Both the position numbers and the translations under genes were made by a program. The notes under the pieces are model-generated. The model was not told the origin of the DNA. It ran no database searches and was given only the letters and a program-made list of their open reading frames with translations. A stretch of DNA of 64,000 bases from Hydrogenophaga sp. NFH-34 (lineage in GTDB: Bacteria; Pseudomonadota; Gammaproteobacteria; Burkholderiales; Burkholderiaceae_C). This document shows positions 2,314 through 17,369 of this stretch, one piece after another; the stretch's first letter is position 1, and every line of letters begins with the position of its first letter. The stretch covers positions 186,001 through 250,000 of the forward strand of contig NZ_JACBGE010000003.1 in NCBI RefSeq assembly GCF_021401345.1, read 5' to 3'.

Positions 2314-3357
2314 TCAGGACTTGACGCCCTGCTTTTCGATCAGGCGGCGCGCACTCTGCACCAGCGAACGACCATCCAGCCCGCGCTTTTCCATCTCCTG
2401 AATCCACTCGACTTCCACCGGCGCCGTCTTGCGATAGAACTGCTGCGCGTCTGCACCATCGATCTGGTGGATGGTATTGCCCCGGTCCTGAGCCGCCTTC
2501 TTGCCCACCGGATCGCCGAGCAAGGTTCCGGCGCCCATGCGACCGGACTGCTCCAGGCCCGAGCACCGGTCGATCACCTTGCGCAGATCGTCCGGCATCT
2601 CTTGGTACTTCCGCTTGTTCATCGCCAACACAAAGGCGGCCGTGTAGAGCGAGTTCACGCCAGGCGCGAATTCGGAGTGGAACGGCGCAAGCTCGTGCGC
2701 CTTGATCGGGTACGCGGCATCCCAGGGAATCACCGCGCCATCGATCACGCCCTTGCTCAGCGCATCCGGAATCGCGGGCAGCGGCATGCCGACCGGGGTG
2801 GCCCCCAGATTGCTCAACAGCTTGGTCACGAGTCGGGTGGCACCGCGCACCTTGGAACCCGCGAAGTCTTCGGGGCGCTTGATCAGTTTGTTGCGCATGT
2901 GAATGACGCCGGGGCTGTGCACGTGAAAGGCCAACGCCTGAACCTCGCGGAATTCCGTGGTCGCTTCTTTCTCCATGTACTCCCAGAGCGCCCGCGATGT
3001 GCGTTCCGCGTTGTTCATCATGAACGGCAGCTCGAAGACCTCGATGCGGGGGAAACGCCCCGGTGTGTTGCCCGGCAATGTCCACGCCACGTCGACCACC
3101 CCGTCCCGAGCCTGGTCGAAGAGCTGCGCGGGTGTTCCGCCCATCTGCATTGCCGGATAGGCCTCGAACTTGATGGCGTCGCCCGACTCCTTTTCCACCC
3201 GTTCGATCCATGGCTGAACGATATTGCGCCAGCCCGTCGACTGCTGCGGCAGAAAGGTGTGAAAACGGAGCTTCAAACGCGGCTGGGCAAACCCTGTCAG
3301 CGCAGGTGCTCCCAGGCTGAGGGCACCGGCCTGCAGGATCGTTCTTCGTTGCATCAT
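2314..3357 (-). CDS. TRAP transporter substrate-binding protein (DctP family), orphan
   Basis: A 347-residue periplasmic solute-binding protein of the DctP/TRAP family, which captures carboxylates or related solutes for a DctQM-type sodium-driven importer. It starts with a signal sequence containing a twin arginine (QRRTILQ) followed by a hydrophobic stretch to about residue 24. The body shows typical DctP features such as KFEAYPAMQMGG, the WTLPGNTPGRFPRIEVFELPF region and KVRGATRL. GGAGA lies 7 bases before the ATG at 3357. No DctQ or DctM membrane gene is present in the window, so this is an orphan binding protein here. A perfect GntR-like palindrome overlaps a TATAAT element about 110 bases upstream, suggesting ligand-controlled repression. 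Ligand unknown. Confidence 0.9.
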   Translation of the reverse strand: MMQRRTILQAGALSLGAPALTGFAQPRLKLRFHTFLPQQSTGWRNIVQPWIERVEKESGDAIKFEAYPAMQMGGTPAQLFDQARDGVVDVAWTLPGNTPGRFPRIEVFELPFMMNNAERTSRALWEYMEKEATTEFREVQALAFHVHSPGVIHMRNKLIKRPEDFAGSKVRGATRLVTKLLSNLGATPVGMPLPAIPDALSKGVIDGAVIPWDAAYPIKAHELAPFHSEFAPGVNSLYTAAFVLAMNKRKYQEMPDDLRKVIDRCSGLEQSGRMGAGTLLGDPVGKKAAQDRGNTIHQIDGADAQQFYRKTAPVEVEWIQEMEKRGLDGRSLVQSARRLIEKQGVKS

Positions 3358-3879: not shown

Positions 3880-4749
3880 TCAACCCTTGTCCAGCCCCAG
3901 CAGCCGCACCGCGTTGCCCTTGAGGATGCCGGGCATCACTTCGGGTTTGAAGCCGGCCACTTCGAAGTCCTTCATCCAGCGCTCGGGCGTGATCAGCGGA
4001 TAGTCGCTGCCGAACAGCACGCGGTCCTTGAGCAGGGTGTTGGCGTACTGCACGAGTTGCTTGGGGAAATACTTCGGGCTCCAGCCGCTGAGGTCGATCC
4101 ACACGTTGGGCTTGTGCGTGGCCACCGACAGCGCCTCGTCTTGCCACGGGAAGCTGGGGTGCGCCATCACGATCTGCATGTCGGGGAAGTCGATCGCCAC
4201 GTCGTCCAGGTGGATGGGGTTGCTGTATTCCAGCCGCAGGCCGCCGCCGCAGCGCATGCCCGAACCGATGCCGCTGTGGCCGGTGTGGAAGATGGCCGGC
4301 AGCTTGTGCGCATTGATCACTTCGTAGATCGGCCAGGCCATCTTGTCGTAGGGGTGGTAGCCCTGCACCGTCGGATGGAACTTGAAGCCCTTGATGCCTT
4401 CTTCCTGGATCAGGCGCTCAGCCTCGCGTGCGCCCATTTTCCCCTTGTGCGGGTCGATGCTGGCGAAGGCCATCATCATGTCGCTGTTCTCGCGCGCCGC
4501 CTGGGCAATCTCCTCGTTGGGGATGCGACGGCGACCCAGCTTGGACTCGCTGTCGACGGTAAACATCACGAGCCCGATCTTGCGTTCGCGGTAGTAGGCG
4601 ATGGTCTCGGCGATGGTCGGTCGGCGGTTGCTGCCGAAGTACTTGTCGGCCGCGCGGTCGTACTCCTCCCCGTAGTTGTCGAACGGGTTCCAGCAGCTCA
4701 CTTCAGCGTGGGTATGAATGTCGATGGCGATCAGGTTCTGGTGATCCAT
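3880..4749 (-). CDS. amidohydrolase family protein (Amidohydro_2)
   Basis: A 289-residue metal-dependent hydrolase of the amidohydrolase-2 family, which includes decarboxylases and lactonases of aromatic ring-cleavage products. Metal-ligand motifs are visible: D10-I-H12-T-H14 at the N-terminus, the FHTGHSG region, AHPSFPWQDE and the late FGSDYP aspartate. I place the start at 4749, because GGAGA precedes it at good spacing; an upstream in-frame ATG at 4776 has none. It is transcribed divergently from the crotonase of the hydroxycinnamate cluster, and a 19-bp palindrome lies between them, so it is probably controlled together with that cluster. The actual reaction is unknown; retro-aldol, decarboxylase and hydrolase roles are all possible in this family. 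Confidence 0.88.
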   Translation of the reverse strand: MDHQNLIAIDIHTHAEVSCWNPFDNYGEEYDRAADKYFGSNRRPTIAETIAYYRERKIGLVMFTVDSESKLGRRRIPNEEIAQAARENSDMMMAFASIDPHKGKMGAREAERLIQEEGIKGFKFHPTVQGYHPYDKMAWPIYEVINAHKLPAIFHTGHSGIGSGMRCGGGLRLEYSNPIHLDDVAIDFPDMQIVMAHPSFPWQDEALSVATHKPNVWIDLSGWSPKYFPKQLVQYANTLLKDRVLFGSDYPLITPERWMKDFEVAGFKPEVMPGILKGNAVRLLGLDKG

Positions 4750-4809
4750 GGGGGTCTCCGGGACTAGGGTAAACACCGATGCAATCGGTGCCTGCTTTGC
4801 TTGATTTGG

Positions 4810-4828
4810 TTATTGTTTATAACAATAA
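4810..4828. promoter_or_regulatory. perfect 19-bp palindromic operator in divergent promoter region
   Basis: TTATTGTT-TAT-AACAATAA has 8-base arms around a 3-base centre, in an AT-rich patch within GC-rich DNA. On the plus strand TATAAC (4818-4823) and on the minus strand TATAAA (4821 to 4816, with TTGTTG 17 bases upstream) both fall inside it, so one bound dimer could control both divergent promoters. The MarR protein encoded at 16848 is the obvious candidate ligand-responsive repressor, but that link is inference. Confidence 0.7.
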
Positions 4829-4858
4829 TCCCCTCACCCAACAAGCCCGCATTCCCTG

Positions 4859-5653
4859 ATGACCATGACCCCTTCCAACCCGGACCTGCGCCTGCGCCTG
4901 CATGGCGAACAATCGGAAATCGCCATCGTCACGCTCAACCGCGCGGCCAAGCGCAATGCGCTCAACGATGGCCTGATCCTGTCGCTGCGCGACGTGTTCC
5001 AGAACCTGCCCGCCAGCGTGCGCGCCGCCGTGATCCACGGCGAAGGCGATCACTTCAGCGCGGGGCTTGACCTGTCCGAACTCAGCGAACGCGACGCCAG
5101 CGAAGGCGTCTTCCACTCGCGCATGTGGCACGCCGCGCTGGACTGCGTGGAAAAAGGCAACGTTCCGGTGATCGCGGCCCTGCACGGCGCGGTGGTCGGC
5201 GGCGGCCTGGAGCTGGCCAGCGCCTGCCACATCCGTGTGGCCGACGACAGCACTTTCTACGCGCTGCCCGAAGGCACGCGCGGCATCTTCGTCGGTGGCG
5301 GCGGCGCGGTGCGCGTGCCCAAGCTGATCGGCGCCGCCCGCATGACCGACATGATGCTGACCGGCCGCGTCTACAACGCGGTGGACGGCGAGCGCATCGG
5401 CCTGTCGCAGTACGTGGTGCCGCAAGGCACGTCGCTGGACAAGGCCATCGACCTGGCCACCCGCATCGCCGGCAACGCCCGCATGACCAACTTCGCGCTC
5501 ATGCACGCCCTGCCCCGCATCGCCGAACAGCCGGCCGACCACGGCTTCCTGACCGAAGCCATGATGGCCGCGATCGCCCAGTCGGCCCCCGAAGCCAAGG
5601 CCCGCGTGCGCGCTTTCCTGGAAGGCAAGGCGGCCAAGGTCAGCAAGGACTGA
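4859..5653 (+). CDS. crotonase-fold enoyl-CoA hydratase family protein
   Basis: A 264-residue crotonase-superfamily enzyme. The oxyanion-hole segment is seen as FSAGLDLSEL near residue 65. Both catalytic glutamates of the hydratase type appear present: one in GGGLELASAC and one in ALPEGTRGIFVGGGG. It is the first gene of a plus-strand series that continues with feruloyl-CoA synthase, thiolase and a hydroxyacyl-CoA dehydrogenase. Context therefore suggests hydration of feruloyl-CoA or coumaroyl-CoA. Hydratase/lyase (retro-aldol) activity giving vanillin cannot be excluded, but the neighbouring dehydrogenase and thiolase argue for simple hydration followed by beta-oxidation. No strong ribosome binding site is visible; an ATG at 4865 is an alternative start. 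Confidence 0.88.
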   Translation: MTMTPSNPDLRLRLHGEQSEIAIVTLNRAAKRNALNDGLILSLRDVFQNLPASVRAAVIHGEGDHFSAGLDLSELSERDASEGVFHSRMWHAALDCVEKGNVPVIAALHGAVVGGGLELASACHIRVADDSTFYALPEGTRGIFVGGGGAVRVPKLIGAARMTDMMLTGRVYNAVDGERIGLSQYVVPQGTSLDKAIDLATRIAGNARMTNFALMHALPRIAEQPADHGFLTEAMMAAIAQSAPEAKARVRAFLEGKAAKVSKD

Positions 5654-5723
5654 TCTTTCTGTATCCACGAGCCAAGCCGGCGGCAGACCGGCAGCGCCCG
5701 ACACCCGTTGACCCGAGAGAGAC

Positions 5724-7583
5724 ATGAGCACGACAGCGAAATACCGCCCTCTGAAGTTCGGCGTCACGCGCGCCACCCTGCGCGACGGCAGCCCCGGCGT
5801 CCACTATCTGCGCGCCGACCAGGCGCTCGACGCCTTTCCCGAGCGCATCACCGACCGCCTCGTCCACTGGGCCCGCACCGAACCCGGGCGCACGCTGTTC
5901 GCGCGCCGCGTGAAGCAGGCCGATGGCAGCAGCGGTGACTGGAAACACATCAGCTTCGCGCAGGCGCTGGACGCCGCGCGCCGTATCGGTCAGGGTCTGA
6001 TCGACCGGGGTCTGTCGGTCGAGCGCCCAGTGCTCATCCTCAGCGAGAACGACCTCGAACATGCCTTGCTGGCGCTGGGCTGCGTGTACGCCGGCATCCC
6101 CTACTGCCCGACGTCGCCGGCCTATTCGCTCATCAGCCAGGACTTCGACAAGCTCCGCCACGTGGTCAAGACGCTGACCCCGGGCCTGGTCTTCGCCAGC
6201 GACGCCAACCGTTACAGCCGGGCCATGCTCGCCACGCTGGACAGCGACGTCGAACTGGTCGCCACCGAAGGCACGGTGCCTGGTCGGGCCACCACCTCGT
6301 TCGCCGCGCTGCTCGAGACCGAGCCGACCGACGCCGTCGACGCAGCAATGGCCGCCACCGGCCCGGACACCATCACCAAATTCCTGTTCACCTCCGGCTC
6401 GACCAAGATGCCCAAGGCGGTGATCAACACCCAGCGCATGTGGTGCGCCAACCAGCAGCAAATGACGCAGTCAATGCCCGTCCTGGGCGAAGGCAACCTG
6501 GTGCTGGTCGACTGGCTGCCCTGGAACCACACCTTCGGCGGCAACCACAACTTCGGCATGGTGATCTACCACGGTGGCTCCATGTACATCGACGACGGCA
6601 AGCCGACGCCGGCCCTGATCGGGGAAACCCTGCGCAACCTGCGCGAGATCGCGCCCACGGTGTACTTCAATGTGCCCACCGGGTTCGAAGCCATTGCCAA
6701 CGCCATGAAGACCGACGACCTGCTGCGCAAGACGCTGCTGTCGCGGGTGCAGATGTTCTTCTATGCGGGCGCCGCCCTGGCCCAGCCCGTGTGGGACAGC
6801 CTCTTCGAAAGCCAGGAGCGCGAAATCGGCGAGCGCATCGTGATGAGCACCGGCCTGGGCATGACGGAATCGGGCCCGTTCGGCATCTTCGTGACCAACC
6901 CGAACGTGAAGGCCGGCGACCTGGGCCTGCCCACGCCGGGCCTGGACCTCAAGCTGGTGGACATCGACGGCAAGACCGAAGTGCGTTACCGCGGTCCCAA
7001 CATCACCCCGGGATACTGGCGCATGCCGGCCGAAACCGCCGAAGCCTTCGACGAAGAAGGCTTCTTCAAGACCGGCGATGCCGTCAAGTGGATCGACGAG
7101 ACCGACGTGCACCAGGGCCTGAAATTCGACGGTCGCATTGCCGAAGACTTCAAACTCGCCACCGGCACCTTCGTGAGCGTGGGTCCGCTGCGCGCGAAGA
7201 TCATCGCGGCCGGCGCGCCCTATGTGCAGGACGTGGTGCTGACCGGCCTGAACATGAAAGAAGTCGGCGCCATGGTCTTCCCCACGGCCGCCGTGCGCCA
7301 GCTCAGCGGCCTGCCGGCCGATGCCTCGCTGCACGACGTGCTCGACGCGCCGGGTGTGCTGGCCCATTTCCAGACCGTGGTCAACGAACTGGCCCGCTCC
7401 GCCACCGGCAGCGCCAACCGCATTGCGCGCCTGTGCCTGCTGGCCGATCCCCCCACCATCGACCGCGGCGAGATCACCGACAAGGGCTCGATCAACCAGC
7501 GTTCGGTGCTCAGCCACCGGGCCGACACCGTGGCCAAGCTGCACGCTGACGAGTTGCACTACATCCTCAAACCGAACATCTGA
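5724..7583 (+). CDS. fcs: feruloyl-CoA synthase (hydroxycinnamate-CoA ligase)
   Basis: A 619-residue AMP-forming acyl-CoA ligase with the size and sequence character of bacterial feruloyl-CoA synthases. The ATP-binding P-loop FTSGSTKMPK lies at about residues 222-231. The family-typical WLPWNHTFGGNHNFG segment, the STGLGMTESGPFG adenylate motif and the late FKTGDAVKWID and GRIAEDFKLATGTFVSVG motifs follow in order. It would activate ferulate, p-coumarate or caffeate with CoA and ATP in the cytoplasm. GAGAGA lies a few bases before the ATG at 5724. It sits between the crotonase and the thiolase. Substrate range cannot be read from sequence, but family assignment is strong. Confidence 0.92.
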   Translation: MSTTAKYRPLKFGVTRATLRDGSPGVHYLRADQALDAFPERITDRLVHWARTEPGRTLFARRVKQADGSSGDWKHISFAQALDAARRIGQGLIDRGLSVERPVLILSENDLEHALLALGCVYAGIPYCPTSPAYSLISQDFDKLRHVVKTLTPGLVFASDANRYSRAMLATLDSDVELVATEGTVPGRATTSFAALLETEPTDAVDAAMAATGPDTITKFLFTSGSTKMPKAVINTQRMWCANQQQMTQSMPVLGEGNLVLVDWLPWNHTFGGNHNFGMVIYHGGSMYIDDGKPTPALIGETLRNLREIAPTVYFNVPTGFEAIANAMKTDDLLRKTLLSRVQMFFYAGAALAQPVWDSLFESQEREIGERIVMSTGLGMTESGPFGIFVTNPNVKAGDLGLPTPGLDLKLVDIDGKTEVRYRGPNITPGYWRMPAETAEAFDEEGFFKTGDAVKWIDETDVHQGLKFDGRIAEDFKLATGTFVSVGPLRAKIIAAGAPYVQDVVLTGLNMKEVGAMVFPTAAVRQLSGLPADASLHDVLDAPGVLAHFQTVVNELARSATGSANRIARLCLLADPPTIDRGEITDKGSINQRSVLSHRADTVAKLHADELHYILKPNI

Positions 7584-7695
7584 CCCCGCCATCACCGGCA
7601 CGGCCTCCACAGCCATGCCGACAGGCCGGCGGCGCCAGGCCTCTGCACGCGGCGGACACGGCAAAGCGATACGAACGGGTGGAAAGGACCCAGCC

Positions 7696-8946
7696 ATGAC
7701 ACAACGAGGTTTCTTCACAGCATTCGAGGACGTCGTGATCGTCGACGGCGTGCGCACGCCGATGGTCGACTACTGCGGCGCGCTGGGCCACATCTCGCCG
7801 ACCGACCTGGGCATCAAGGCCGCGCGCGCTGCGCTCGCGCGTGCCGGCATCGCCCCGAGCGAGATCGGCTCGGTGGTCACCGGCAACATGGCGCCCGGCG
7901 ACTTCGACCAGTTCTTCCTGCCGCGCCACATCGGCCTGTACGCCGGCGTGCCGGTCGAGGTGCCCGCCATCATGGCGCAGCGCATCTGCGGCACCGGCTT
8001 CGAGCTTTTCCGCCAGGCCGGTGAACACATCCAGGGCGGCGCCTGCGACGCGGCGCTGGTGGTGGGCACGGAAAGCATGACGCGCAACCCCATCGCCGCC
8101 TTCGACCACCGCACCGGCTTCAAGCTGGGCGCGCCGGTCGGCTTCAAGGACTACATGTGGGAAGCGCTCAAGGATCCCGCGGCCGGCATCAACATGATCC
8201 AGACCGCCGAGAACCTGGCCAAGAAGTACGGCATCACGCGCGAAGAAGTCGACACGTTTGCGTCGGCCTCGTTCGCCAAGGCCGTGGCGGCCCAGGAAAG
8301 CGGGTTCCTGGCGGGCGAGATCGTGCCGGTGGTGACCGAGAAGTTCGAGATCGACGGCTACCAGACACGCGGCATCCGGCTGCAGGGCAAGGTCACCGAA
8401 GTGGCGACCGACACCCACCCGCGCCTGTCGCCGGTCGAGGTGCTGGCCAAGCTCAAGCCCGTGTTCGACGGCGGCGTGCAGACCGGCGGCAACAGTTCGG
8501 CCCTGGTCGATGCCGCCGCCGCCTGCGTGGTGAGTTCCGGCGCCTACGCCAAGGCCCAGGGCAAGAAGCCGCTGGCGCGCGTGGTCGGCGCCGCTGCGGT
8601 GGGTGTGCCCCCCGAAATCATGGGCATCGGCCCGGCGCCGGCGATCCGCCTGCTGCTGGAGCGCACCGGCCTGAAGCTGGACGACATCGCCCGCTTCGAG
8701 GTCAACGAAGCCCAGGGCGCCCAGACCCTCGCGGTCGCCAAGGAGCTGGGCATGGACATCAACAAGCTCAACGTCAACGGCGGCGCCATCGCGCTGGGCC
8801 ACCCGCTGGCCACCACCGGTGTGCGCCTGACGCTGACGCTGGCCCGCGAGCTGCAGCGCAGCGGCAAGAAGTACGGCATTTCCAGCGCCTGCGTCGGCGG
8901 TGGCCAGGGCATCGCCCTCCTCATTGAGAACCCGGAAGGAAACTGA
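7696..8946 (+). CDS. acetyl-CoA acetyltransferase-family thiolase
   Basis: A 416-residue thiolase with all three catalytic elements. The nucleophile is Cys98 in RICGTGF, the general base His369 lies in GGAIALGHPL, and Cys399 lies in SACVGGGQG. GGAAAGGA precedes the ATG at 7696. In this cluster it would cleave an aryl-3-ketopropionyl-CoA, such as vanilloyl-acetyl-CoA, with free CoA to give an aroyl-CoA and acetyl-CoA; this substrate is inferred from neighbours, not from sequence. The next gene starts one base after its stop, so the two are clearly one operon. The enzyme could also act in ordinary fatty-acid or acetoacetyl-CoA metabolism. Confidence 0.92.
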   Translation: MTQRGFFTAFEDVVIVDGVRTPMVDYCGALGHISPTDLGIKAARAALARAGIAPSEIGSVVTGNMAPGDFDQFFLPRHIGLYAGVPVEVPAIMAQRICGTGFELFRQAGEHIQGGACDAALVVGTESMTRNPIAAFDHRTGFKLGAPVGFKDYMWEALKDPAAGINMIQTAENLAKKYGITREEVDTFASASFAKAVAAQESGFLAGEIVPVVTEKFEIDGYQTRGIRLQGKVTEVATDTHPRLSPVEVLAKLKPVFDGGVQTGGNSSALVDAAAACVVSSGAYAKAQGKKPLARVVGAAAVGVPPEIMGIGPAPAIRLLLERTGLKLDDIARFEVNEAQGAQTLAVAKELGMDINKLNVNGGAIALGHPLATTGVRLTLTLARELQRSGKKYGISSACVGGGQGIALLIENPEGN

Positions 8947-8947
8947 C

Positions 8948-9712
8948 ATGAACATCCAAGGACAGGCCGCCCTCGTCACCGGCGGCGGCTCCGGCCTCGG
9001 GGAGGCCACCGCCCGCGAACTCGCCCGGCTGGGTGCCAAGGTCGCCGTGCTCGACCTCAACCTCGACAACGCCCAGCGCGTGGCGGGCGAGATCGGCGGC
9101 GTGGCCATCCGCTGCGACGTGAGCAACCCCGAAAGCATGCAAGCCGCCATCGATACGGCGGCCGCGGCCCATGGCCCGGCACGCATCCTGATGCAGATCG
9201 CCGGTATCGGCACGGCCAAGCGCGTGATCGGCAAGGACGGCAACGCCGCACCGCTGGAAGACTTTGCCAAGGTGGTCAACGTCAACCTCATCGGCACCTA
9301 CAACGCTGCGCGCCTGTTCGCCGCAGCCTGCGCCAAGCTCGACCCGATGGAAGACGGCGAGCGCGGCGCGATGGTGTTCACCGCCAGCGTCGCCGCCTTC
9401 GACGGCCAGGTCGGCCAGCAGGCCTACAGCGCGTCCAAGGGCGGCGTGGTCGGCATGACCCTGCCCATGGCACGCGACCTGGCGCAATACGGCATCCGTG
9501 TCTGCACCATCGCGCCCGGCCTGTTCGCCACGCCGCTGATGAAGACCCTGCCCGAGCCGGTGCAGGAATCGCTGGCCAAAAGCATTCCCTTCCCGCAACG
9601 CCTGGGTAAACCCGAAGAGTTTGCCCAACTCGCCACGCATATCGTCAGCAATGGCCACCTCAATGGCGAGGTGATCCGGCTGGATGGCGCGCTGCGAATG
9701 GCTCCCCGGTAA
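8948..9712 (+). CDS. short-chain dehydrogenase, HSD10-like 3-hydroxyacyl-CoA dehydrogenase
   Basis: A 254-residue classical short-chain dehydrogenase. The NAD-binding GGGSGLG lies near residues 12-18, with an acidic VLDLN after the second strand that favours NAD. The catalytic Ser147, Tyr160 and Lys164 (YSASK) are present, followed by the IAPGLFATPLM loop. Sequence character matches type II 3-hydroxyacyl-CoA dehydrogenases (HSD17B10 family). It would oxidise the 3-hydroxyacyl-CoA made by the crotonase to the 3-ketoacyl-CoA used by the thiolase. The ATG at 8948 overlaps no gene and lies one base after the thiolase stop, next to GGAAGGAAA. Its placement directly after a thiolase is a strong sign of a beta-oxidation role. 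Confidence 0.92.
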   Translation: MNIQGQAALVTGGGSGLGEATARELARLGAKVAVLDLNLDNAQRVAGEIGGVAIRCDVSNPESMQAAIDTAAAAHGPARILMQIAGIGTAKRVIGKDGNAAPLEDFAKVVNVNLIGTYNAARLFAAACAKLDPMEDGERGAMVFTASVAAFDGQVGQQAYSASKGGVVGMTLPMARDLAQYGIRVCTIAPGLFATPLMKTLPEPVQESLAKSIPFPQRLGKPEEFAQLATHIVSNGHLNGEVIRLDGALRMAPR

Positions 9713-9823
9713 CCCCCTCCGGCGGCGTCACCGCCTCCGGGGGCGACGCAGGCGGTGTGGCAAAGCCCGCTCCGCTGCGCCCCGGGCCAGCGTGTTTCGC
9801 GCCGATTTTCGATCTGGGTATGT

Positions 9824-10246
9824 ATGTCAAAAACCGTTGTGTATGAAGTCGAAGTGATGTTCGGGGATTGCGATCCCGCCGGCATCGTCTTCTTTCCCAA
9901 TTTCAGCAAGTGGATGGACGCCTCGTCGCTGAACTTTTTCGTCCAGTGCGGTGTGCCGCCCTGGCGCGAGCTGTCCAAGACCACCGGGATCATCGGCACG
10001 CCGCTGCTGGAAATCCACACCAAGTTTATGAAGCCCGCCACCTATGGCGAACGGCTCCAGGTCCACACCAGCGTCACCGAGTGGCGCGAGAAGGTGCTGA
10101 TTCACCGACATGTGGTCATGCGTGGCGACACGGTGCTCTGCGAAGGCACCGAGACCCGCGCGTTCTGCATGCGCGATCCGGCCAACCCGGACCGCATCAA
10201 GGCGATCCCCATTCCCGCCGACATCCGCGCCCTGTGCGGCGGCTGA
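9824..10246 (+). CDS. 4-hydroxybenzoyl-CoA thioesterase family protein
   Basis: A 140-residue single hot-dog domain protein. The N-terminal stretch VMFGDCDPAGIVFFPNF carries the aspartate (DPAG) that is catalytic in Pseudomonas-type 4-hydroxybenzoyl-CoA thioesterases. The length is typical of the family. In this cluster it would release free 4-hydroxybenzoate or vanillate from the aroyl-CoA left by thiolysis, which completes the side-chain pathway. The start at 9824 is chosen because the conserved domain begins there; there is no strong ribosome binding site. A 111-base gap with an imperfect stem (about 9711-9741) separates it from the dehydrogenase gene, so it could have lower or separate expression. 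Confidence 0.88.
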   Translation: MSKTVVYEVEVMFGDCDPAGIVFFPNFSKWMDASSLNFFVQCGVPPWRELSKTTGIIGTPLLEIHTKFMKPATYGERLQVHTSVTEWREKVLIHRHVVMRGDTVLCEGTETRAFCMRDPANPDRIKAIPIPADIRALCGG

Positions 10247-10293
10247 GGCGGCTTTTCCCCGAGTCCGCAACCACCACCCTGGAGACATAGAGC

Positions 10294-11427
10294 ATGAAGA
10301 CTTTCAAGACCCTGATCGCCGTGGCCGTCACGGCGCTGGCAGCCTCCGCTGCCCAAGCCGACGTGAAGATCGGCGTGAGCATCTCGCTGACCGGCCCGGG
10401 CTCCGGCCTGGGCATCCCGATGCAGAACCAGTTCAAGCTGTTCCCGTCCACCATCGCCGGCGAGAAGGTGCAACTGATCATCCTCGATGACGCCACCGAC
10501 CCGGGCAAGGGCGCTGCCAACGCCCGCCGCTTCGTGACCGAAGACAAGGTCGACATGATCATCGGCTCCAGCATCACGGCCGTGGCTGCGGCCATGACCG
10601 ACATCGCGTCGGAAGCCGGCACCGTGCAACTGGCCGGCTCGCCCGTGGGCGTGCCCGCCGGCAAGGACAAGTGGCTGTTCCGCCTGCCCCAGTCCAACAC
10701 CGTGATGGGCCACGCCGTTGTGGAACACATGAAGGAACAGGGCGTCAAGACCATCGGCTTCCTGGGTTACACCGACGCCTACGGCGAACAGTGGCTCAAG
10801 GAAATCACCCCGCTGCTGGACAAGGCCGGCATCAAGATCATCGCCACCGAGCGCTTCGCCCGCACCGACACCAGCGTGACGCCGCAGGCCCTGAAGATCA
10901 CGGCCTCCAACCCCGATGCGGTGCTGATCGTCGCTTCCGGCAGTGGCGCCGCCATGCCGCACATGGCCATGGTCGAGCGCGGCTTCAAGGGCAAGATCTA
11001 CCAGACCCACGCGGCCGCCACCCAGGATCTGATGCGCGTCGGCGGCAAGTCGGTCGAAGGCGCTTTCGTGGTGTCCGGCCCGGCGGTGATTGCCGAGCAA
11101 CTGCCCGACAAGCACCCGTCCAAGCCGGTCGCGATCGACTTCGTGCAGAAGTACGAAAAGGCCTACGGTCCGAACTCGCGCAACCAGTTCGCGGGTCACG
11201 CCTACGACGCCCAGGTGGTGCTGGAGAAGATCCTCCCGGTGGCGTTGAAGAAGGCCAAGCCCGGCACGCCCGAGTTCCGCGCTGCGCTGCGCGACACCAT
11301 GGAAACCATGGGCCGCACCGTGTTCTCGCACGGCGTCATGAACTGGACTCCGGCCGACCACTGGGGCTACACGCTGGAAACCGGCGTGATGCTCAAGGTG
11401 GTCGACGGCAAGTTCAAGGTCGAATAA
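10294..11427 (+). CDS. ABC transporter substrate-binding protein, branched-chain amino acid type
   Basis: A 377-residue periplasmic binding protein of the LivK/Leu-Ile-Val family. A signal peptide is clear (MKTFK followed by a hydrophobic run ending ASAAQA at residue 22), and the mature protein begins DVKIGVSISLTGPGSGLG, typical of this family. GGAGA precedes the ATG. Family members in aromatic clusters bind hydroxycinnamates or benzoates rather than amino acids, for example the CouP type in Rhodopseudomonas. The position between the CoA-pathway enzymes and the permease genes makes an aromatic acid ligand likely, though this is inference. A strong hairpin follows the gene, which would raise its transcript level over the membrane subunits. 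Confidence 0.92.
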   Translation: MKTFKTLIAVAVTALAASAAQADVKIGVSISLTGPGSGLGIPMQNQFKLFPSTIAGEKVQLIILDDATDPGKGAANARRFVTEDKVDMIIGSSITAVAAAMTDIASEAGTVQLAGSPVGVPAGKDKWLFRLPQSNTVMGHAVVEHMKEQGVKTIGFLGYTDAYGEQWLKEITPLLDKAGIKIIATERFARTDTSVTPQALKITASNPDAVLIVASGSGAAMPHMAMVERGFKGKIYQTHAAATQDLMRVGGKSVEGAFVVSGPAVIAEQLPDKHPSKPVAIDFVQKYEKAYGPNSRNQFAGHAYDAQVVLEKILPVALKKAKPGTPEFRAALRDTMETMGRTVFSHGVMNWTPADHWGYTLETGVMLKVVDGKFKVE

Positions 11428-11448
11428 ACCCGCCCCTTCCGGCCCCTG

Positions 11449-11505
11449 CCCGGGCCGGTCATGCGCAGCTCCTGCCTGCCGCGCATGACCGGCCCGGGTT
11501 TCTCC
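11449..11505 (+). terminator. 18-bp perfect stem-loop between binding protein and permease genes
   Basis: CCCGGGCCGGTCATGCGC (11449-11466) is perfectly complementary to 11481-11498 with a 14-base loop, followed by TTTCTCC. It fits a leaky terminator or 3-prime mRNA stabiliser after an abundant binding-protein gene. The next gene starts at 11525, so some read-through is expected. Confidence 0.75.
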
Positions 11506-11524
11506 AGACTGACAAGGCCCTCCC

Positions 11525-12565
11525 ATGGACTCCACGATCGCCAGCATCCTGCTGCTGGACGGCCTGACCAACGGTGCCGTGTACGCCCTGCTCGGGCTGG
11601 CCACGGTGCTCGTCTTCACGGTCACACGCATCATCTTCATTCCCCAGGGGGAGTTCGTCGCCTATGGCGCCCTCACCCTGGCCATCTTCCAGACCGGCAA
11701 GGTGCCGGGCACCGTCTGGCTGCTGCTGTTGCTGGCCAGCGTGGCCGCAGTCATGGAACTGTTCTCGCGCTGGCAGCACCACCGCAGCCTGCCGATCGCC
11801 CTCAAGGCCGCCCTCAAGACCCTGGCCGCGCCGGTGGCCGTGAGCCTGCTGGCGATCTGGGCCGCCCCGCAGCAGTGGCCGCTGCTGGCCCAGGCCGCCA
11901 TGAGCGTGGCCATCGTCACCGTGTATGGTCCGCTGGTCTACCGCGTGGCCTACCAGTCGCTGGAGAGCGCGACCCCGCTGGTGCTGCTGATCGTTTCGGT
12001 GGGCGTGCACTTCGCCCTCACCGGCCTGGGCCTGCTGTTCTTCGGCGCCGAGGGCTTCCGCAACCCCAGCTTCTGGGACGACCGCTTCAACCTCGGCCCG
12101 GTCGCGATCTCGGGCCAGACCATCATCATCGGGTTGACCGCCATCGCGCTGATCGTGCTGCTGTGGCTGTATTTCGAGCGCACGCTGCGCGGCAAGGCGC
12201 TGCGCGCCACCGCGGTCAACCGCACCGGTGCCCGCCTGATGGGCATCTCGACCCACGCCTCCGGCCAGCTCACGCTGACCATGGCGGCCTTCATCGGCGC
12301 GCTCTCGGGCCTGCTGATCGGGCCCACCACCACCGTGTTCTACGACTCGGGCTTCCTGATCGGCCTCAAGGGCTTCGTGGCGGCCGTCGCCGCCGGCCTG
12401 TCGAGCTACCCGGGCGCCCTCATCGCGGCCGCTTTCGTGGGCGTGATCGAGGCTTTCGGCTCTTTCTGGGCCAGCGCCTTCAAGGAAGTGATCGTGTTCA
12501 CACTCATCCTGCCGGTGCTGCTGGTGCGGTCGATCTACGGCCACAACGCCGACGAGGAGCATTGA
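11525..12565 (+). CDS. livH: branched-chain-type ABC transporter permease (LivH family)
   Basis: A 346-residue integral membrane permease. It opens with the [23 protein letters not shown] segment region characteristic of LivH proteins and has about eight to ten hydrophobic stretches. The protein is longer than the usual 290 or so residues because of an extra segment at about residues 55-125. The conserved cytoplasmic loop [16 protein letters not shown], which contacts the ATPase, lies near residue 225. It pairs with the fused LivM-LivG protein that starts 4 bases after its stop. Together with the upstream binding protein it would import the cluster's aromatic acid substrate. Confidence 0.92.
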
Positions 12566-12569
12566 TTCC

Positions 12570-14342
12570 ATGGCCCTGAAACCCCAATCCCTCGGCCTGC
12601 TCGTGCTGGCAGCCGCCGTGCCGCTGGTGGCCGTGCTGCCGCTGCCCGACTTCTGGATCACCCAGCTCAACTACATCGGCATGTACGCCATGACGGCGCT
12701 GGGCCTGGTGCTGCTCACCGGTGTGGGCGGTCTCACCTCTTTCGGCCAGGCGGCCTTCGTGGGCATCGGCGCCTACACCACAGCCTGGCTCACGCTCAAC
12801 CTCGGTGTCTCGCCGTGGATCACGCTGTTCATCGGCATGGTGCTCACCGCTGCCAGCGCGCTCGTGGTCGGCGTGATCACGCTGCGCATGTCGGGCCACT
12901 ACCTGCCGCTGGCCACCATCGCCTGGGGCCTGTCGCTGTACTACCTGATGGGCAACCTGGACGCGCTGGGCAAATACGATGGCCTGCTGGGCATCCAGAG
13001 CCTGAGCATCGGCAACTTCGACATCGGCCAGGGCCGCGCCTTCTTCGTGCTCACCTGGTTCATCCTGCTGGCCTTTGCGGCCGCCTTGCTGCACCTGCTG
13101 GACTCGCGCGCCGGCCGCGCCATCCGCGCCATCAAGAGCGGCCCGCAGATGGCCGAAGCCATGGGCATCAGCACCTTCCGCTACAAGGTCACGATCTTCG
13201 TGCTGGCCGCGCTGTCCGCGTCGGTCGCGGGCTGGCTGCTGGCGCATTTCCAGCGCACCGTGAACCCGTCGGCCTTCGGCCTGAAGATGGGCATCGAGTA
13301 CCTGTTCATGTCGGTGGTCGGTGGCGTCAACTACGTCTGGGGTGCCTTCGTCGGCGCAGGTCTCATCAAGCTGATGGACGACCAATTGCAGGTGCTGCTG
13401 CCGCGGCTGCTCGGCACCAGCGGCAGCTACGAGGTGATCGTGTTCGGCGTCATGCTGGTGCTGGTGCTCAAGTACCTGCCCGACGGCCTGTGGTCCATGG
13501 TCGAAAAGAAGCTGCCCCGCCGTCCGCGCGCCGTCGACTGGCAGCAGGCTGCGCCGTTGCCTGAACGGAACAAACCCGCTCTGGGTGAGCTGGTGCTGGA
13601 CGTGGACCGCATCCGCAAGCAGTTCGGGGGACTGACCGCCGTCAACGACATCAGCTTCCAGATCCGCGCCGGCCAGATCGTTGGCCTGATCGGCCCCAAC
13701 GGTGCCGGCAAATCGACCACCTTCAACCTCATCACCGGGGTGCTCTCGCTCACCAGCGGCACGGTCAGCTACCGGGGCCGCCGCGTCAGCGGTCTGCCAG
13801 CACGCGCCATCGCCCGCGAGGGCGTCTCGCGCACCTTCCAGCACGTCAAGATGATTCCCGACATGACGGTGCTGGAGAACGTGGCGCTGGGCGCCCACAC
13901 CCGGGGCCACAAGGGCGTCGCCGCGGCCATGATCCGCACCAACAGCGACGAGGAGCGGCGTCTGTTCCGCGAAGCGCAGCGCCAGCTCGAACGCATCGGC
14001 ATGGGCGAGTACCTGCACGAACAGGCCGGCAACCTGGCCATGGGTCCGCAGCGCCTGATGGAAATCGCGCGCGCGCTGTGCGCCGACCCGGCCCTGCTGC
14101 TGCTGGACGAACCTGCCGCCGGCCTGCGCCACAAGGAAAAGCAGGCCCTGGCCGGGGTGCTGCGCCAGTTGCGCGACGAAGGCATGAGCATCCTGCTCGT
14201 GGAACACGACATGGACCTGGTCATGCAGGTCTGCGACCACCTCGTGGTGATGGAGTTCGGCACCCTGCTCACGCAAGGCACGCCCGAACAGATCCAGCAA
14301 GACCCGAAGGTGCGCGCCGCCTACCTCGGAACGGAACACTGA
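12570..14342 (+). CDS. fused permease-ATPase of a branched-chain-type ABC transporter (LivM-LivG)
   Basis: A 590-residue fusion of two proteins that are usually separate. Residues 1 to about 315 are a LivM permease with multiple membrane spans and the [13 protein letters not shown] coupling loop. A linker rich in Arg and Pro follows, and residues from about 335 are a LivG ATPase. Walker [10 protein letters not shown] is at 375-383, the signature-like [15 protein letters not shown] and Walker [12 protein letters not shown] follow, and the H-loop is LLVEHDMD. No stop codon or frameshift interrupts the join, so the fusion looks genuine. Its stop overlaps the start of livF by one base. Such fusions are known in some proteobacterial Liv-type systems. 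Confidence 0.92.
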
Positions 14343-15076
14343 TGAACACCCCGATTCTTCACGTCAAGGACCTGCGCGCCGGCTACGGCAAGGCGGAGGT
14401 GCTGCACGGCATCGGCCTGCGCGCCGACAAGGGCAGCGTGATCACCGTGATCGGCCCCAACGGCGCCGGCAAGTCGACCCTGCTCAACACCCTCATGGGC
14501 ATCCTGCCCGGCAAGGGCCTCATCGAGTTCAACGGCCAGGACATCGGCACGCTCACGCTCGAAGAGCGCGTCATGCAAGGCATCGCCCTGGTGCCCGAAA
14601 AACGCGAGCTGTTCGGCTCCATGCCGGTGGAAGACAACCTGCTGCTGGGCGGCTTCCGCCAGATGCGCATCGGCAACGCCCAGTGGCGCGCCCGCCTGGA
14701 CGACGTGTACGACCTCTTTCCGCGCCTGAAAGAGCGGCGCGTGCAGCTGGCCGGCACGCTCTCGGGGGGCGAGCGCCAGATGCTGGCCGTGGGACGCGCG
14801 CTGATGGCCCGCCCCGACCTGCTCATGCTCGACGAACCCAGCCTGGGCCTGGCGCCGCTGATCGTGCGCGAGATCTTCTCCATCATCCAGAGCCTGCGCC
14901 AGACCGGCGTGACCATCGTGCTCGTGGAACAGAATGCGCGCGCCGCGCTGCAGGTGGCCGATCACGGCTACGTGCTCGAAATGGGCGAACTCAGCGCGCA
15001 GGGGCCTGCCGACCAGCTCGCCAACGACCCGCGCGTGATCGAAACCTATCTGGGCAGCGCCCGCAAAAAAGACTGA
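14342..15076 (+). CDS. livF: branched-chain-type ABC transporter ATP-binding protein (LivF family)
   Basis: A 244-residue ATPase, the usual length for LivF. Walker [10 protein letters not shown] is at residues 38-46, the signature LSGGERQMLAVGRAL is canonical, Walker B is LLMLDEPSLGLAP and the H-loop is VLVEQNAR. The ATG at 14342 shares its A with the stop codon of the LivM-LivG fusion (TGATG), so translation is coupled. It is the second ATPase half of the importer. The acyl-CoA dehydrogenase gene starts 5 bases after its stop, tying transport and catabolism into a single transcript. Confidence 0.93.
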   Translation: MNTPILHVKDLRAGYGKAEVLHGIGLRADKGSVITVIGPNGAGKSTLLNTLMGILPGKGLIEFNGQDIGTLTLEERVMQGIALVPEKRELFGSMPVEDNLLLGGFRQMRIGNAQWRARLDDVYDLFPRLKERRVQLAGTLSGGERQMLAVGRALMARPDLLMLDEPSLGLAPLIVREIFSIIQSLRQTGVTIVLVEQNARAALQVADHGYVLEMGELSAQGPADQLANDPRVIETYLGSARKKD

Positions 15077-15081
15077 CCTGC

Positions 15082-16809
15082 ATGAACGCCTTCCAGCCCA
15101 ACGCCGCCGACACCGGCTTCATCCTCCTCGACGTGCTGCGCGCGCCCGAAACGCTCGCAGCCCTGCCCGCCCTGGCCGACAACGCCGACCCCGACCTGAT
15201 CCGCCAGGTCGCCGAAGAGGCGGGCAAGTTCGTGGGTGAGGTGGTGGCCCCGCTCAATCGCGACGGTGACGAAATCGGGGCCCAGTGGAAGGCGGGTGCC
15301 GTGACCATGCCGCCCGGGTTCCGCGACGCCTACCAGGCCTTCTGGCAAGCTGGCTGGCCCGCCTTGTCCTCGGCACCGGAAGACGGCGGGCAGGGCCTGC
15401 CCGCTGCGCTGGAGGCCATGCTCTACGAATGGCTGAGCGCGGCCAACCACGGCTGGACCATGGCGCCCGGTCTGTTGCACGGCGCCTACGAGTGCATCAA
15501 GCACCACGCGTCCGATGCGCTGAAGGCGCAGTTTCTCGCCAAGGTGGCCACCGGCGAATGGCTGGCCACCATGTGCCTGACCGAACCGCACGCCGGCTCC
15601 GACCTCGGCCTGTGCCGCACCAAGGCCGTGCCGCTGGCCAACGACCCCGAGGGCCGCTACGCCCTCAGCGGCACGAAGATCTTCATCTCGGGCGGCGAAC
15701 ACGACCTGACCGACAACATCGTGCACCTGGTGCTCGCGCGCCTGCCCGACGCCCCGCCCGGCCCCAAGGGCCTGTCGCTGTTCCTGGTGCCCAAGTTTTA
15801 CGCCGACGGCACGCGCAGCGCCGTGGTGTGCGAGCGCATCGAAGAAAAGATGGGCCTGCACGGCAGCCCCACCTGCGTGATGCGTTTCGACGAGGCCGCC
15901 GCCTGGATCGTCGGCGAGCCCGGCAAGGGCCTGAACGCCATGTTCGTGATGATGAACGCGGCCCGGCTGCATGTCGGCCTGCAAGGCGTGGGCCTGCTCG
16001 AAGCGGCCTGGCAGAAGGCCGACGCCTATTCGAAGGAACGCCGCCAGATGCGCGCCCCAGGCGGCGCCGCCAAGGCTGGCGAGGCGGACCTGATCGAACA
16101 GCACCCGGCAATGCGCCGCATCCTCGACGCGCAGCGCGCCTGGATCGATGCCGGCCGTGTGATCGCCTACCGCACCGCGCTGGAGCTCGACGTCATCAAG
16201 CACCACAGCGACCCCGCCCGCCAGGCGCGGGCCAACCGCTGGTGCACGCTCGTCACCCCCGTGCTCAAGGCCGCCTGGACCGACCAGGCCTTCCACGGCG
16301 CCAGCGCCTGCCTGCAGGTCTTCGGCGGCCACGGTTTCGTGCGCGAATGGGGCATCGAGCAAATCGTGCGCGACTCGCGCGTGGCCATGATCTACGAAGG
16401 CACCAATGAGATCCAGGCCATCGACCTGCTGCTGCGCAAAACCCTGCCCGACGGCGGCGGCGCGCTGCAAGCCCTGCTGAAGGACCTGTCGGCCGAACTG
16501 CCCGACGGCGACGCCAACTCGGCGCGCGTGCGCGGCGAAATCGACCGCTTCGCCCACTTCGTGCGCGAACAGTTGGTGCCCGCCACCCAGGCCGATGGCG
16601 CCGCAGCCGACCTGCCGCACTGGCTGGCCGACGACTTCCTGCGTGCCACGGCCATGCTGCTGATGGCCTGGGGCTGGGCCCGCATCGCTGCCACACCCGG
16701 CGCCGACACGCCACGCTGGCAGACGGCCCACCAGGGGTTCTGGCGCTGGGTCTGGCCGGAATTCGACATGCGGCTGTCCATGATGGCGCAGACCCTGGCC
16801 AGCGCCTGA
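15082..16809 (+). CDS. acyl-CoA dehydrogenase, large (DmdC/FadE5-like) type
   Basis: A 575-residue flavoprotein of the longer acyl-CoA dehydrogenase type, with a C-terminal extension beyond the usual 380-residue core. CLTEPHAGSDLG and the GTKIFISGGEHD segment mark the flavin and substrate region, and the VAMIYEGTNEIQAIDLL motif carries the expected catalytic glutamate position. In this cluster it could desaturate phenylpropanoyl-CoA compounds such as dihydroferuloyl-CoA to the cinnamoyl-CoA level, feeding reduced analogues into the same route. That substrate is inferred. The start at 15082 follows livF by 5 bases. Related proteins also act on 3-methylmercaptopropionyl-CoA or fatty acyl-CoAs. 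Confidence 0.9.
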   Translation: MNAFQPNAADTGFILLDVLRAPETLAALPALADNADPDLIRQVAEEAGKFVGEVVAPLNRDGDEIGAQWKAGAVTMPPGFRDAYQAFWQAGWPALSSAPEDGGQGLPAALEAMLYEWLSAANHGWTMAPGLLHGAYECIKHHASDALKAQFLAKVATGEWLATMCLTEPHAGSDLGLCRTKAVPLANDPEGRYALSGTKIFISGGEHDLTDNIVHLVLARLPDAPPGPKGLSLFLVPKFYADGTRSAVVCERIEEKMGLHGSPTCVMRFDEAAAWIVGEPGKGLNAMFVMMNAARLHVGLQGVGLLEAAWQKADAYSKERRQMRAPGGAAKAGEADLIEQHPAMRRILDAQRAWIDAGRVIAYRTALELDVIKHHSDPARQARANRWCTLVTPVLKAAWTDQAFHGASACLQVFGGHGFVREWGIEQIVRDSRVAMIYEGTNEIQAIDLLLRKTLPDGGGALQALLKDLSAELPDGDANSARVRGEIDRFAHFVREQLVPATQADGAAADLPHWLADDFLRATAMLLMAWGWARIAATPGADTPRWQTAHQGFWRWVWPEFDMRLSMMAQTLASA

Positions 16810-16847
16810 GCGGCGGTAACGCCGATGCCACCCGTTATGCTTGCGCC

Positions 16848-17369
16848 ATGACCGCCCCATCCGTTGCCAACACCCTGCGCCGCCCCCGGGGCCCGCGCAA
16901 AGCCGCTGTCGCCCCCGAAGCGGTGGTGGCAGAGGCCGGCACCGGTATCGACACGTCCTACCTCGAAACCCTGCTCGGCTACAACGCCCGGCGGGCGGCG
17001 CTGGCGGTCATCACCGTGTTCCTGCGCCGCATGGCCCCCTACGGCCTGCGCCCGGTCGACTTTTCGGTGCTCACCCTGATCGCGCACAACCCGGGCATCA
17101 CCTCGCGCCAGGTCTGTGCGGCGCTGGACATCCTGCCGCCGAATCTGGTCGGCATGATCAAGTCGCTGGACCAGCGTGGCCTGATCGAGCGGCGCCCGCA
17201 CCCCACCGACCGGCGCGCCCAGGGCCTGCACCTCTCGCCCGCCGGCAAGCGGCTGCAGAAGAACGCGCAACTCACCGCAACCCAGCTCGAATCCGATGTG
17301 GGCAGCCGGCTCTCGGACGAAGAGCTCGACACGCTCAAGTCGCTGCTGCGCCGCGTCTACCGCGCCTGA
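16848..17369 (+). CDS. MarR family transcriptional regulator
   Basis: A 173-residue protein with an N-terminal 35-residue polar tail, then a winged helix-turn-helix of the MarR type. The recognition region GITSRQVCAALDILPPNLVGMIKSLDQRGLIERR and the wing HPTDRRAQGLHLSPAGKRL are typical. MarR proteins in hydroxycinnamate clusters (for example CouR and HcaR) are repressors released by aryl-CoA thioesters. By position this is the likely regulator of the cluster, and the 19-bp palindrome at 4810-4828 is its likely target. It is the last gene in the plus-strand series, 38 bases after the acyl-CoA dehydrogenase. It may be transcribed with the operon it controls. Confidence 0.88.
   Translation: MTAPSVANTLRRPRGPRKAAVAPEAVVAEAGTGIDTSYLETLLGYNARRAALAVITVFLRRMAPYGLRPVDFSVLTLIAHNPGITSRQVCAALDILPPNLVGMIKSLDQRGLIERRPHPTDRRAQGLHLSPAGKRLQKNAQLTATQLESDVGSRLSDEELDTLKSLLRRVYRA

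Follow-up and report, generated by a model that had tools for sequence, protein, structure and literature searches.

Two candidate pathway endings co-encoded in a proposed hydroxycinnamate catabolic cluster of Hydrogenophaga sp. NFH-34

A proposed beta-oxidative cluster with two endings

The window analyzed here is a stretch of 64,000 nucleotides from Hydrogenophaga sp. NFH-34 (positions 186,001 to 250,000 of contig NZ_JACBGE010000003.1, denoted C33, in a genome of 5.18 Mb). Positions 3880-17369 of the window are occupied by 12 open frames, all of them intact, with an amidohydrolase gene on the minus strand and the other eleven genes on the plus strand. We propose, with a probability of about 0.72, that this cluster is a regulated unit for the catabolism of p-hydroxycinnamates (p-coumarate, caffeate and ferulate) that would follow a beta-oxidative route and would have two co-encoded endings, i.e., a hydrolytic one (the amidohydrolase) and a thiolytic one (a thiolase and a thioesterase). 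The pathway is real and mostly known, and the two co-encoded endings are its new part. No description of both endings in one cluster was found in the literature searched, which is no proof that there is none in print.

The gene families were checked with Pfam, which covered 10 of the 12 proteins, and by comparison with relatives in the Protein Data Bank (PDB), and NCBIfam models were scored against their curated cut-offs. A sequence-only reading of the window had proposed the import of a phenylpropenoid acid followed by activation, hydration, oxidation, cleavage by the thiolase and release of the hydroxybenzoate by the thioesterase. Every gene family that it had named was found at its place, in an intact frame and with the family borne out by Pfam and PDB relatives, but the amidohydrolase, which lies inside the same interval, had been overlooked. 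Hence, although the thiolase and the thioesterase are both present, the cleavage that it had assigned to them is an incomplete account of a cluster in which a hydrolase of the proposed CouO type stands divergently beside the crotonase. The gene set of beta-oxidative deacetylation, i.e., a ligase, a crotonase, a 3-hydroxyacyl-coenzyme A (CoA) dehydrogenase and a beta-keto cleavage enzyme, is present in one cluster. By the crotonase, the nearest named relatives belong to Hydrogenophaga or elsewhere in the Burkholderiales, mostly in the Comamonadaceae (the listing may omit entries from this genome itself). An orthologue of the short-chain dehydrogenase/reductase (SDR) with at least 80% identity was found in 49 of the 60 genomes sampled from the genus, and the same gene order was found again in other genera; therefore, this is not a chance row of genes.

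The amidohydrolase resembles CouO and HpeF

The amidohydrolase (3880..4776, minus strand; PF04909, E 4.3e-49) is proposed to belong with CouO and HpeF, and would then cut an aryl-beta-ketoacyl-CoA to the free acid. Both the sequence family and the metal-ligand residues agree with this assignment, which runs through annotated relatives and relatives in an HpeF-like context rather than through CouO itself. The protein is 58.7% identical to the product of a Rhizobium Q54 plasmid gene (locus L143) annotated as 4-hydroxyphenyl-beta-ketoacyl-CoA hydrolase, whose cluster companions are a ligase, an enoyl-CoA hydratase, an HSD10-type dehydrogenase, an acyl-CoA dehydrogenase and a MarR regulator. It is 50% identical to its counterpart on a plasmid segment from Rhodococcus, where the genes follow the order described for hpe (carboxylase genes, HAD phosphatase, CoA synthetase and amidohydrolase, the frames being named by eye), and 75% identical to its counterpart in an hpe-like plasmid cluster of Pseudomonas putida that has pobA nearby. 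HpeF is described as 95% identical to CouO (PMC9618137), and CouO as the enzyme that performs the last step in Rhodococcus jostii RHA1, giving the aromatic acid (PMC4737184).

The candidate metal ligands H21, H23, H134, H164, H206 and D258 were retained in every covering row of an alignment of 64 proteins, two rows being gapped at the last ones. The aspartate of the GSD motif is residue 258 both in the window protein and in the Rhodococcus protein; in CouO, D257 is reportedly a ligand, according to the 2014 work of Otani. In the named loci the amidohydrolase is the most conserved of the cluster genes, with an identity of 79-98%, and in 39 of the 53 complete loci that possess it (see below for the rule) it is adjacent and divergent to the crotonase. 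In a plasmid cluster of Rhodococcus opacus (L142:9992-14012), a CouO-like amidohydrolase was seen together with a CoA ligase, an SDR and a MaoC-type dehydratase that replaces the crotonase.

The thiolytic ending and the distribution of both endings

The acetyl-CoA acyltransferase (thiolase; 7696..8946, plus strand) scored 368.4 bits with TIGR01930 (cut-off 240.55), and C98, H369 and C399, which we take to be the two cysteines and the histidine of the active site, are present. The 4-hydroxybenzoyl-CoA-type hotdog thioesterase (9824..10246, plus strand) aligns with its best PDB match, the 4-hydroxybenzoyl-CoA thioesterase 1bvq (E 7.9e-36), over residues 1-138 of 140, and the GDCDPAGIV motif and D17, presumably the catalytic residue, are aligned.

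We then counted the genes within 9.5 kb of the crotonase in 142 loci, 125 of which were complete by the rule used (17 were dropped for contig ends). The set comprised the window itself, 80 named loci (which were the best 80 among 575 relatives and are biased to near kin), the plasmid locus L143 and 60 stretches hand-chosen for spread; the plasmid loci L142 and L144 (amidohydrolase and no crotonase match), the short loci L002-L061 and L145-L148, L001 and the later-fetched L209-L213 were excluded. The amidohydrolase was the only ending in 43 complete loci, 40 of which were also missing the thioesterase, and the thiolase was the only ending in 39, with the thioesterase present in 36 of them. Both endings were found in 10 loci, the window among them. 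Most of the related clusters examined thus hold at most one ending, and the window holds two. In addition, the thioesterase was observed in 45 of the 49 loci with a thiolase vs. 19 of the 76 loci without it, and the gap between the ligase and the SDR was 9-178 bases in 44 of the 55 measurable loci without a thiolase, as against 1.28-1.64 kb in 34 of the 41 loci with one. Otani is said to have proposed in 2014 that CouO replaces a thiolase and a thioesterase, and the distribution of the endings agrees with the CouO type replacing the two together.

Within the genus, the presence of both endings together is common. The amidohydrolase lies within 9 kb of the SDR in 30 of the 60 genomes, and the thiolase orthologue is also near in 20 of those 30. 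A thiolase near the SDR with no amidohydrolase match was found in 5 of the 60 genomes, and a thiolase of 70-72% identity, again near the SDR and with no amidohydrolase match, in 4 of the 60; several genomes of this sample are fragmented. An in-frame stop was present in 2 of the 42 amidohydrolase matches.

A different gene set was found in locus L081 (5717-9846, minus strand), where the position of the amidohydrolase is taken by genes for a thiolase of the 70-72% type, for a thiolase-like protein and for a member of the CoA-transferase family. The thiolase-like protein and the CoA-transferase are present in L080, L083, L119 and L140 as well, and the thioesterase is absent from L081, L083 and L119 and present in L140. 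To judge from its genes, this set may be a third ending.

Import, activation and oxidation of the substrate

The ATP-binding cassette (ABC) importer genes together span 10294-15076 on the plus strand. The CouP-type substrate-binding protein (10294..11427) matches CouP of Rhodopseudomonas palustris (PDB 4jb0, E 9.7e-100), in which T102, R197, S222, Q305 and H309 are described as hydrogen-bonding ferulate (PMC3610893). The five polar contacts are all retained in the window protein (T95, R190, S215, Q298 and H302), and two of five further near-ligand positions are changed (E50 to M and L122 to G). The remaining importer genes encode a permease (11525..12565; an open frame with a homologue near CouP in locus L149), a permease-ATPase fusion (12570..14342; PF02653 and PF00005) and a second ATPase (14342..15076; an open frame with a homologue in L149).

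The ligase (5724..7583, plus strand; PF00501) is a homologue of AMP-forming hydroxycinnamoyl (feruloyl)-CoA synthases, and a homologue of it sits at the equivalent place in L149. Its best NCBIfam model, PRK12582 (NF009232), gave 702.9 bits, which is under the cut-off of 777, so that the name feruloyl-CoA synthase is one of homology and the substrate is deduced from the context. The PDB relatives of the SDR (8948..9712, plus strand; YSASK at 160) bear the name 3-hydroxyacyl-CoA dehydrogenase (type II), HSD10, and this protein is a proposed aryl-3-hydroxyacyl-CoA dehydrogenase. Its counterpart in the Rhizobium Q54 cluster is 55% identical to it, and the SDR is kept in 101 of the 125 complete loci, including the window. 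An acyl-CoA dehydrogenase (15082..16809, plus strand; PF00441/PF02770/PF02771 and PDB relatives) is a putative point of entry for dihydro analogues.

A candidate operator between the divergent genes

The 82-bp region between the amidohydrolase and the crotonase (4777..4858), i.e., a divergent promoter region, contains the dyad GTTAT-N5-ATAAC followed by NATAAT (4809..4829), which is proposed as the site of a MarR protein. The core dyad was found in 44 of 47 divergent amidohydrolase-crotonase pairs. Upstream of the crotonase it was present in 40 of the 52 loci with the amidohydrolase only, in 23 of the 43 with the thiolase only and in 8 of the 11 with both, compared with 50 of 2840 random stretches whose length was similar, and 36 of 47 dyad misses fall in L143 or in hand-chosen loci, mostly outside the family of the window.

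The dyad at 4809-4829 is the sole copy without mismatches in the genome. With up to two mismatches one further site was detected upstream of the window (L001:1169-1189, C33:173169-173189), about 75 bases upstream of a gene for a binding protein of the tripartite ATP-independent periplasmic (TRAP) type (L001:63-1094, minus strand). Since a reversed control pattern gave two matches in the genome, a second site of this kind is no more than expected by chance. The CouR regulon of R. palustris likewise includes a TRAP system. The MarR-family regulator of the cluster (16848..17369, plus strand; PF12802; NF053777 73.8 bits, below the cut-off of 200) probably binds the dyad at 4809-4829 and thereby represses the two divergent promoters, and a hydroxycinnamoyl-CoA would release it, as with CouR.

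The crotonase and alternative readings of the cluster

The crotonase (4859..5653, plus strand; PF00378), a proposed hydroxycinnamoyl-CoA hydratase that may instead be a lyase, carries E118 and E138, which we take to be the catalytic positions, and these were invariant in 18 of 18 aligned homologues. Its membership of the p-hydroxycinnamoyl-CoA hydratase/lyase (HCHL) family (NF006588) was rejected, with 79.7 bits against a cut-off of 276, and none of the 33 matches of a whole-genome profile search exceeded that cut-off. This score and the five retained CouP contacts support the earlier proposal that the route depends on CoA, proceeds by beta-oxidation, has an importer of its own and includes no HCHL or vanillin dehydrogenase step in the cluster. 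The best PDB matches were 3hin and then 4izb/4izc. A segment of 3hin is 98% identical to the crotonase of locus L149 (genome G606), which we presume to be CouA of R. palustris by synteny, i.e., by the TRAP genes, the ligase, the MarR gene and a CouP that fits the published residue numbering. No SDR, thiolase or amidohydrolase was found in loci L149-L151 at the score thresholds used, and the SDR is retained in related clusters of their family (Xanthobacteraceae-type). We also rejected a set of residues as a means of separating lyases from hydratases, because 10 of its 11 candidate columns were shared by all six SDR-bearing sister clusters and one by five of them, so that they are clade markers. 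In the CouA-type cluster a DUF3237 protein is encoded directly before the crotonase (L149:8861-9331).

One could propose that the crotonase both hydrates and cleaves its substrate in a retro-aldol reaction of the CouA type, giving hydroxybenzaldehyde and acetyl-CoA, that a genomic aldehyde dehydrogenase finishes the route, and that the SDR, the thiolase, the thioesterase and the amidohydrolase act on other acyl-CoAs. The window crotonase is 61% identical to the presumed CouA, CouA being an enzyme for which formation of the aldehyde has been reported (PMC3610893, PMC7260809), and the genome has 20 Aldedh matches, one of them ending at window position 485. Nevertheless, we consider this route unlikely, since L149-L151 are without SDR, thiolase and amidohydrolase whereas the SDR is kept in most related loci, no aldehyde dehydrogenase is a conserved neighbour, and in one study the knock-down of rpa1786 (CouA) by CRISPR interference is described as barely changing growth (PMC12366328). 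The presence of both glutamates also speaks for a hydratase, although the CouA-like rows keep both as well. Doubt remains at this point: the failure with the HCHL model fits the hydratase of the sequence-only reading, but the identity to the presumed CouA speaks against it, and sequence does not distinguish a hydratase from a lyase here. What favours hydration followed by oxidation in the window is the presence of the SDR and of the endings.

The beta-oxidative reading with two endings has also to be set against other roles of the endings themselves. They might be split by substrate, so that the CouO-type hydrolase would act on the 4-hydroxyaryl-beta-ketoacyl-CoA, and the thiolase and thioesterase on other chains, e.g., those entering through the acyl-CoA dehydrogenase. 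This would be a refinement compatible with our explanation, and the acyl-CoA dehydrogenase in the same cluster is consistent with it, as is the nearness of both endings to the SDR in a third of the genus sample (20/60), which suggests that neither is idle. We hold it as doubtful, since in other loci either ending is found without the other beside the same ligase, crotonase and SDR, which fits interchangeable use. That the amidohydrolase has another aromatic-catabolic task (as a PF04909 decarboxylase, lactonase or hydratase) and an incidental location is in our view very improbable. PF04909 is a functionally mixed family and no NCBIfam model matched the amidohydrolase; against this stand its similarity at the CouO/HpeF level, its context in separate kinds of cluster, and the joint lack of thiolase and thioesterase in 40 of the 43 loci in which it is the only ending.

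Several observations weigh against our preferred explanation, i.e., a beta-oxidative route with two endings. Among the matches listed, the ligase, SDR, thioesterase and MarR protein passed no curated NCBIfam cut-off. No column other than the clade markers separates the crotonases of six SDR-less from those of six SDR-bearing Xanthobacteraceae-type clusters. Neither ending was found in 33 of the 125 complete loci, 21 of which have the SDR, where neither means no ending within 9.5 kb at the score thresholds used, the search having covered the neighbourhood, with the rest of those genomes outside its scope. Fisher tests on 33 SDR loci dereplicated at 75% gave p values of 0.033 for amidohydrolase vs. 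thiolase, 0.00025 for thiolase vs. thioesterase and 0.0014 for amidohydrolase vs. thioesterase, but these ignore kinship and carry no tree correction. In a tree-based pair test (crotonase-plus-ligase tree, 118 loci) the differing independent pairs lay nearly always in the expected direction, but significance was reached neither for amidohydrolase vs. thiolase (7 pairs: opposite 2.6, same 0.1, no difference 4.2; median p 0.375) nor for thiolase vs. thioesterase (10 pairs: same 4.6, opposite 0.1, no difference 5.4; median p 0.125). The random stretches that give the background of the core dyad are unmatched for intergenic composition. Finally, the ending enzyme of Agrobacterium fabrum, Atu1421, is termed a beta-keto-thiolase (PMC7797058).

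Comparison with known systems

The beta-oxidative hydroxycinnamate region SpG8-1b of A. fabrum (Atu1415, 1416, 1417, 1421 and HcaR) is described with a CoA ligase, an enoyl-CoA hydratase, a dehydrogenase, a beta-keto cleavage enzyme, a MarR repressor and beta-oxidative intermediates (PMC7797058), all of which recall the window. The Rhizobium Q54 cluster has genes for the same steps, with an identity to the window proteins of 58.7% for the amidohydrolase, 53% for the crotonase and 55% for the SDR. The window has in addition the thiolase, the thioesterase and the ABC importer, whereas a vanillate demethylase and a second (GntR) regulator are described only for A. fabrum; this comparison was made by description and not with the Atu proteins (PMC7797058). 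The cou genes of R. jostii RHA1 are similarly described with an ending of the amidohydrolase superfamily, a CoA ligase and a MarR regulator that responds to p-coumaroyl-CoA; RHA1 is described as ending with CouO, whereas the window has the thiolase and thioesterase besides, and the likeness runs through the relative in an HpeF-like context (PMC4737184). Publication of the same route for these two organisms (PMC7797058, PMC4737184) contradicts its earlier presentation as unusual. Taken together, the observation made by the sequence-only reading was confirmed and its interpretation partly supported, with the novelty overstated and the cleavage step incompletely assigned.

The couAB, couPSTU, tarPQM and couR genes of R. 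palustris share with the window a crotonase, a ligase, an ABC importer whose polar ligand residues agree, a thioesterase-like gene and a MarR regulator (PMC3610893; L149 by synteny), but L149-L150 are without SDR, thiolase and amidohydrolase at the thresholds used, and the route is published as one other than beta-oxidation (PMC3610893). The retro-aldol route of HCHL/Ech also has CoA activation and an enzyme of the crotonase fold, but the window crotonase is far under the HCHL cut-off and no protein of the genome passes it. By description, PipUVWX of Rhodococcus ruber, which shorten piperine to a free acid with four enzymes in a beta-oxidation-like manner, are similar to the RHA1 and A. fabrum enzymes and differ from the window in substrate (PMC12753220). 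The 3-phenylpropanoid route of Aromatoleum aromaticum, likened also by description, is a beta-oxidation of 3-(4-hydroxyphenyl)propanoate (PMC9765128).

Surrounding genes and fate of the products

No aldehyde dehydrogenase was found within 3880-17369, as had been said of a vanillin dehydrogenase before, but one ends nearby, at window position 485 (L001:12893-14485). It was rejected as a cluster member, since an Aldedh match above 250 bits lies within 9.5 kb of the crotonase in 2 of the 125 complete loci, i.e., the window and one other. This gene is followed by a GMC oxidoreductase (495-2117), and a lone DctP-type TRAP binding protein is encoded at 2314-3357. Further upstream (L001:1967-12808) there is apparently another aromatic-catabolic cluster, with a Rieske-type oxygenase, a divergent ferredoxin-reductase-like gene, CoA-transferase-like genes, a tricarboxylate-type binding protein and GntR/FadR-like regulators (named by eye).

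Elsewhere in the genome, PobA scored 678.4 bits (cut-off 538.7), VanA_C had six matches, three of them with at least 149 bits, and some 26 kb ahead of the window the same contig carries a LigB-family gene, with neighbours that are presumably LigC- and LigI-like.

Proposed pathway and its significance

The analysis establishes which genes are present, their families and retained residues, the dyad and how the endings are distributed; the steps, the substrate range, the regulation and the action of both endings on the same intermediate are deduced from the genes. The CouP-type ABC system would import the hydroxycinnamic acid, the CoA ligase would activate it, the crotonase would hydrate the double bond of the hydroxycinnamoyl-CoA, and the HSD10-type SDR would oxidise the 3-hydroxyl. 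In the hydrolytic ending, the CouO-type amidohydrolase would cut the aryl-beta-ketoacyl-CoA to free hydroxybenzoate and acetyl-CoA. In the thiolytic ending, the thiolase would give aroyl-CoA and acetyl-CoA, and the 4-hydroxybenzoyl-CoA-type thioesterase would then act. The products would enter PobA and the protocatechuate 4,5-cleavage genes elsewhere in the genome.

More tentatively, the ending could be an exchangeable cassette, so that the two of the window would cut the same aryl-beta-ketoacyl-CoA in parallel, one by hydrolysis in a single step, with loss of the thioester energy, and the other by a thiolysis that keeps the aroyl-CoA until the thioesterase acts; a third cassette of the L081 type could pass CoA directly from the aroyl-CoA to the next hydroxycinnamate that comes in. 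A further question is raised by the crotonase, since CouA is a reported lyase and yet its close relative is placed in a beta-oxidation cluster. Lignin-derived hydroxycinnamates are an important feedstock, and the ending that is used sets the ATP cost, the CoA balance and whether or not a toxic aldehyde is formed. Related strains that differ in their ending are a natural experiment, in which the idea that CouO replaces the thiolase and thioesterase is testable within one genus.

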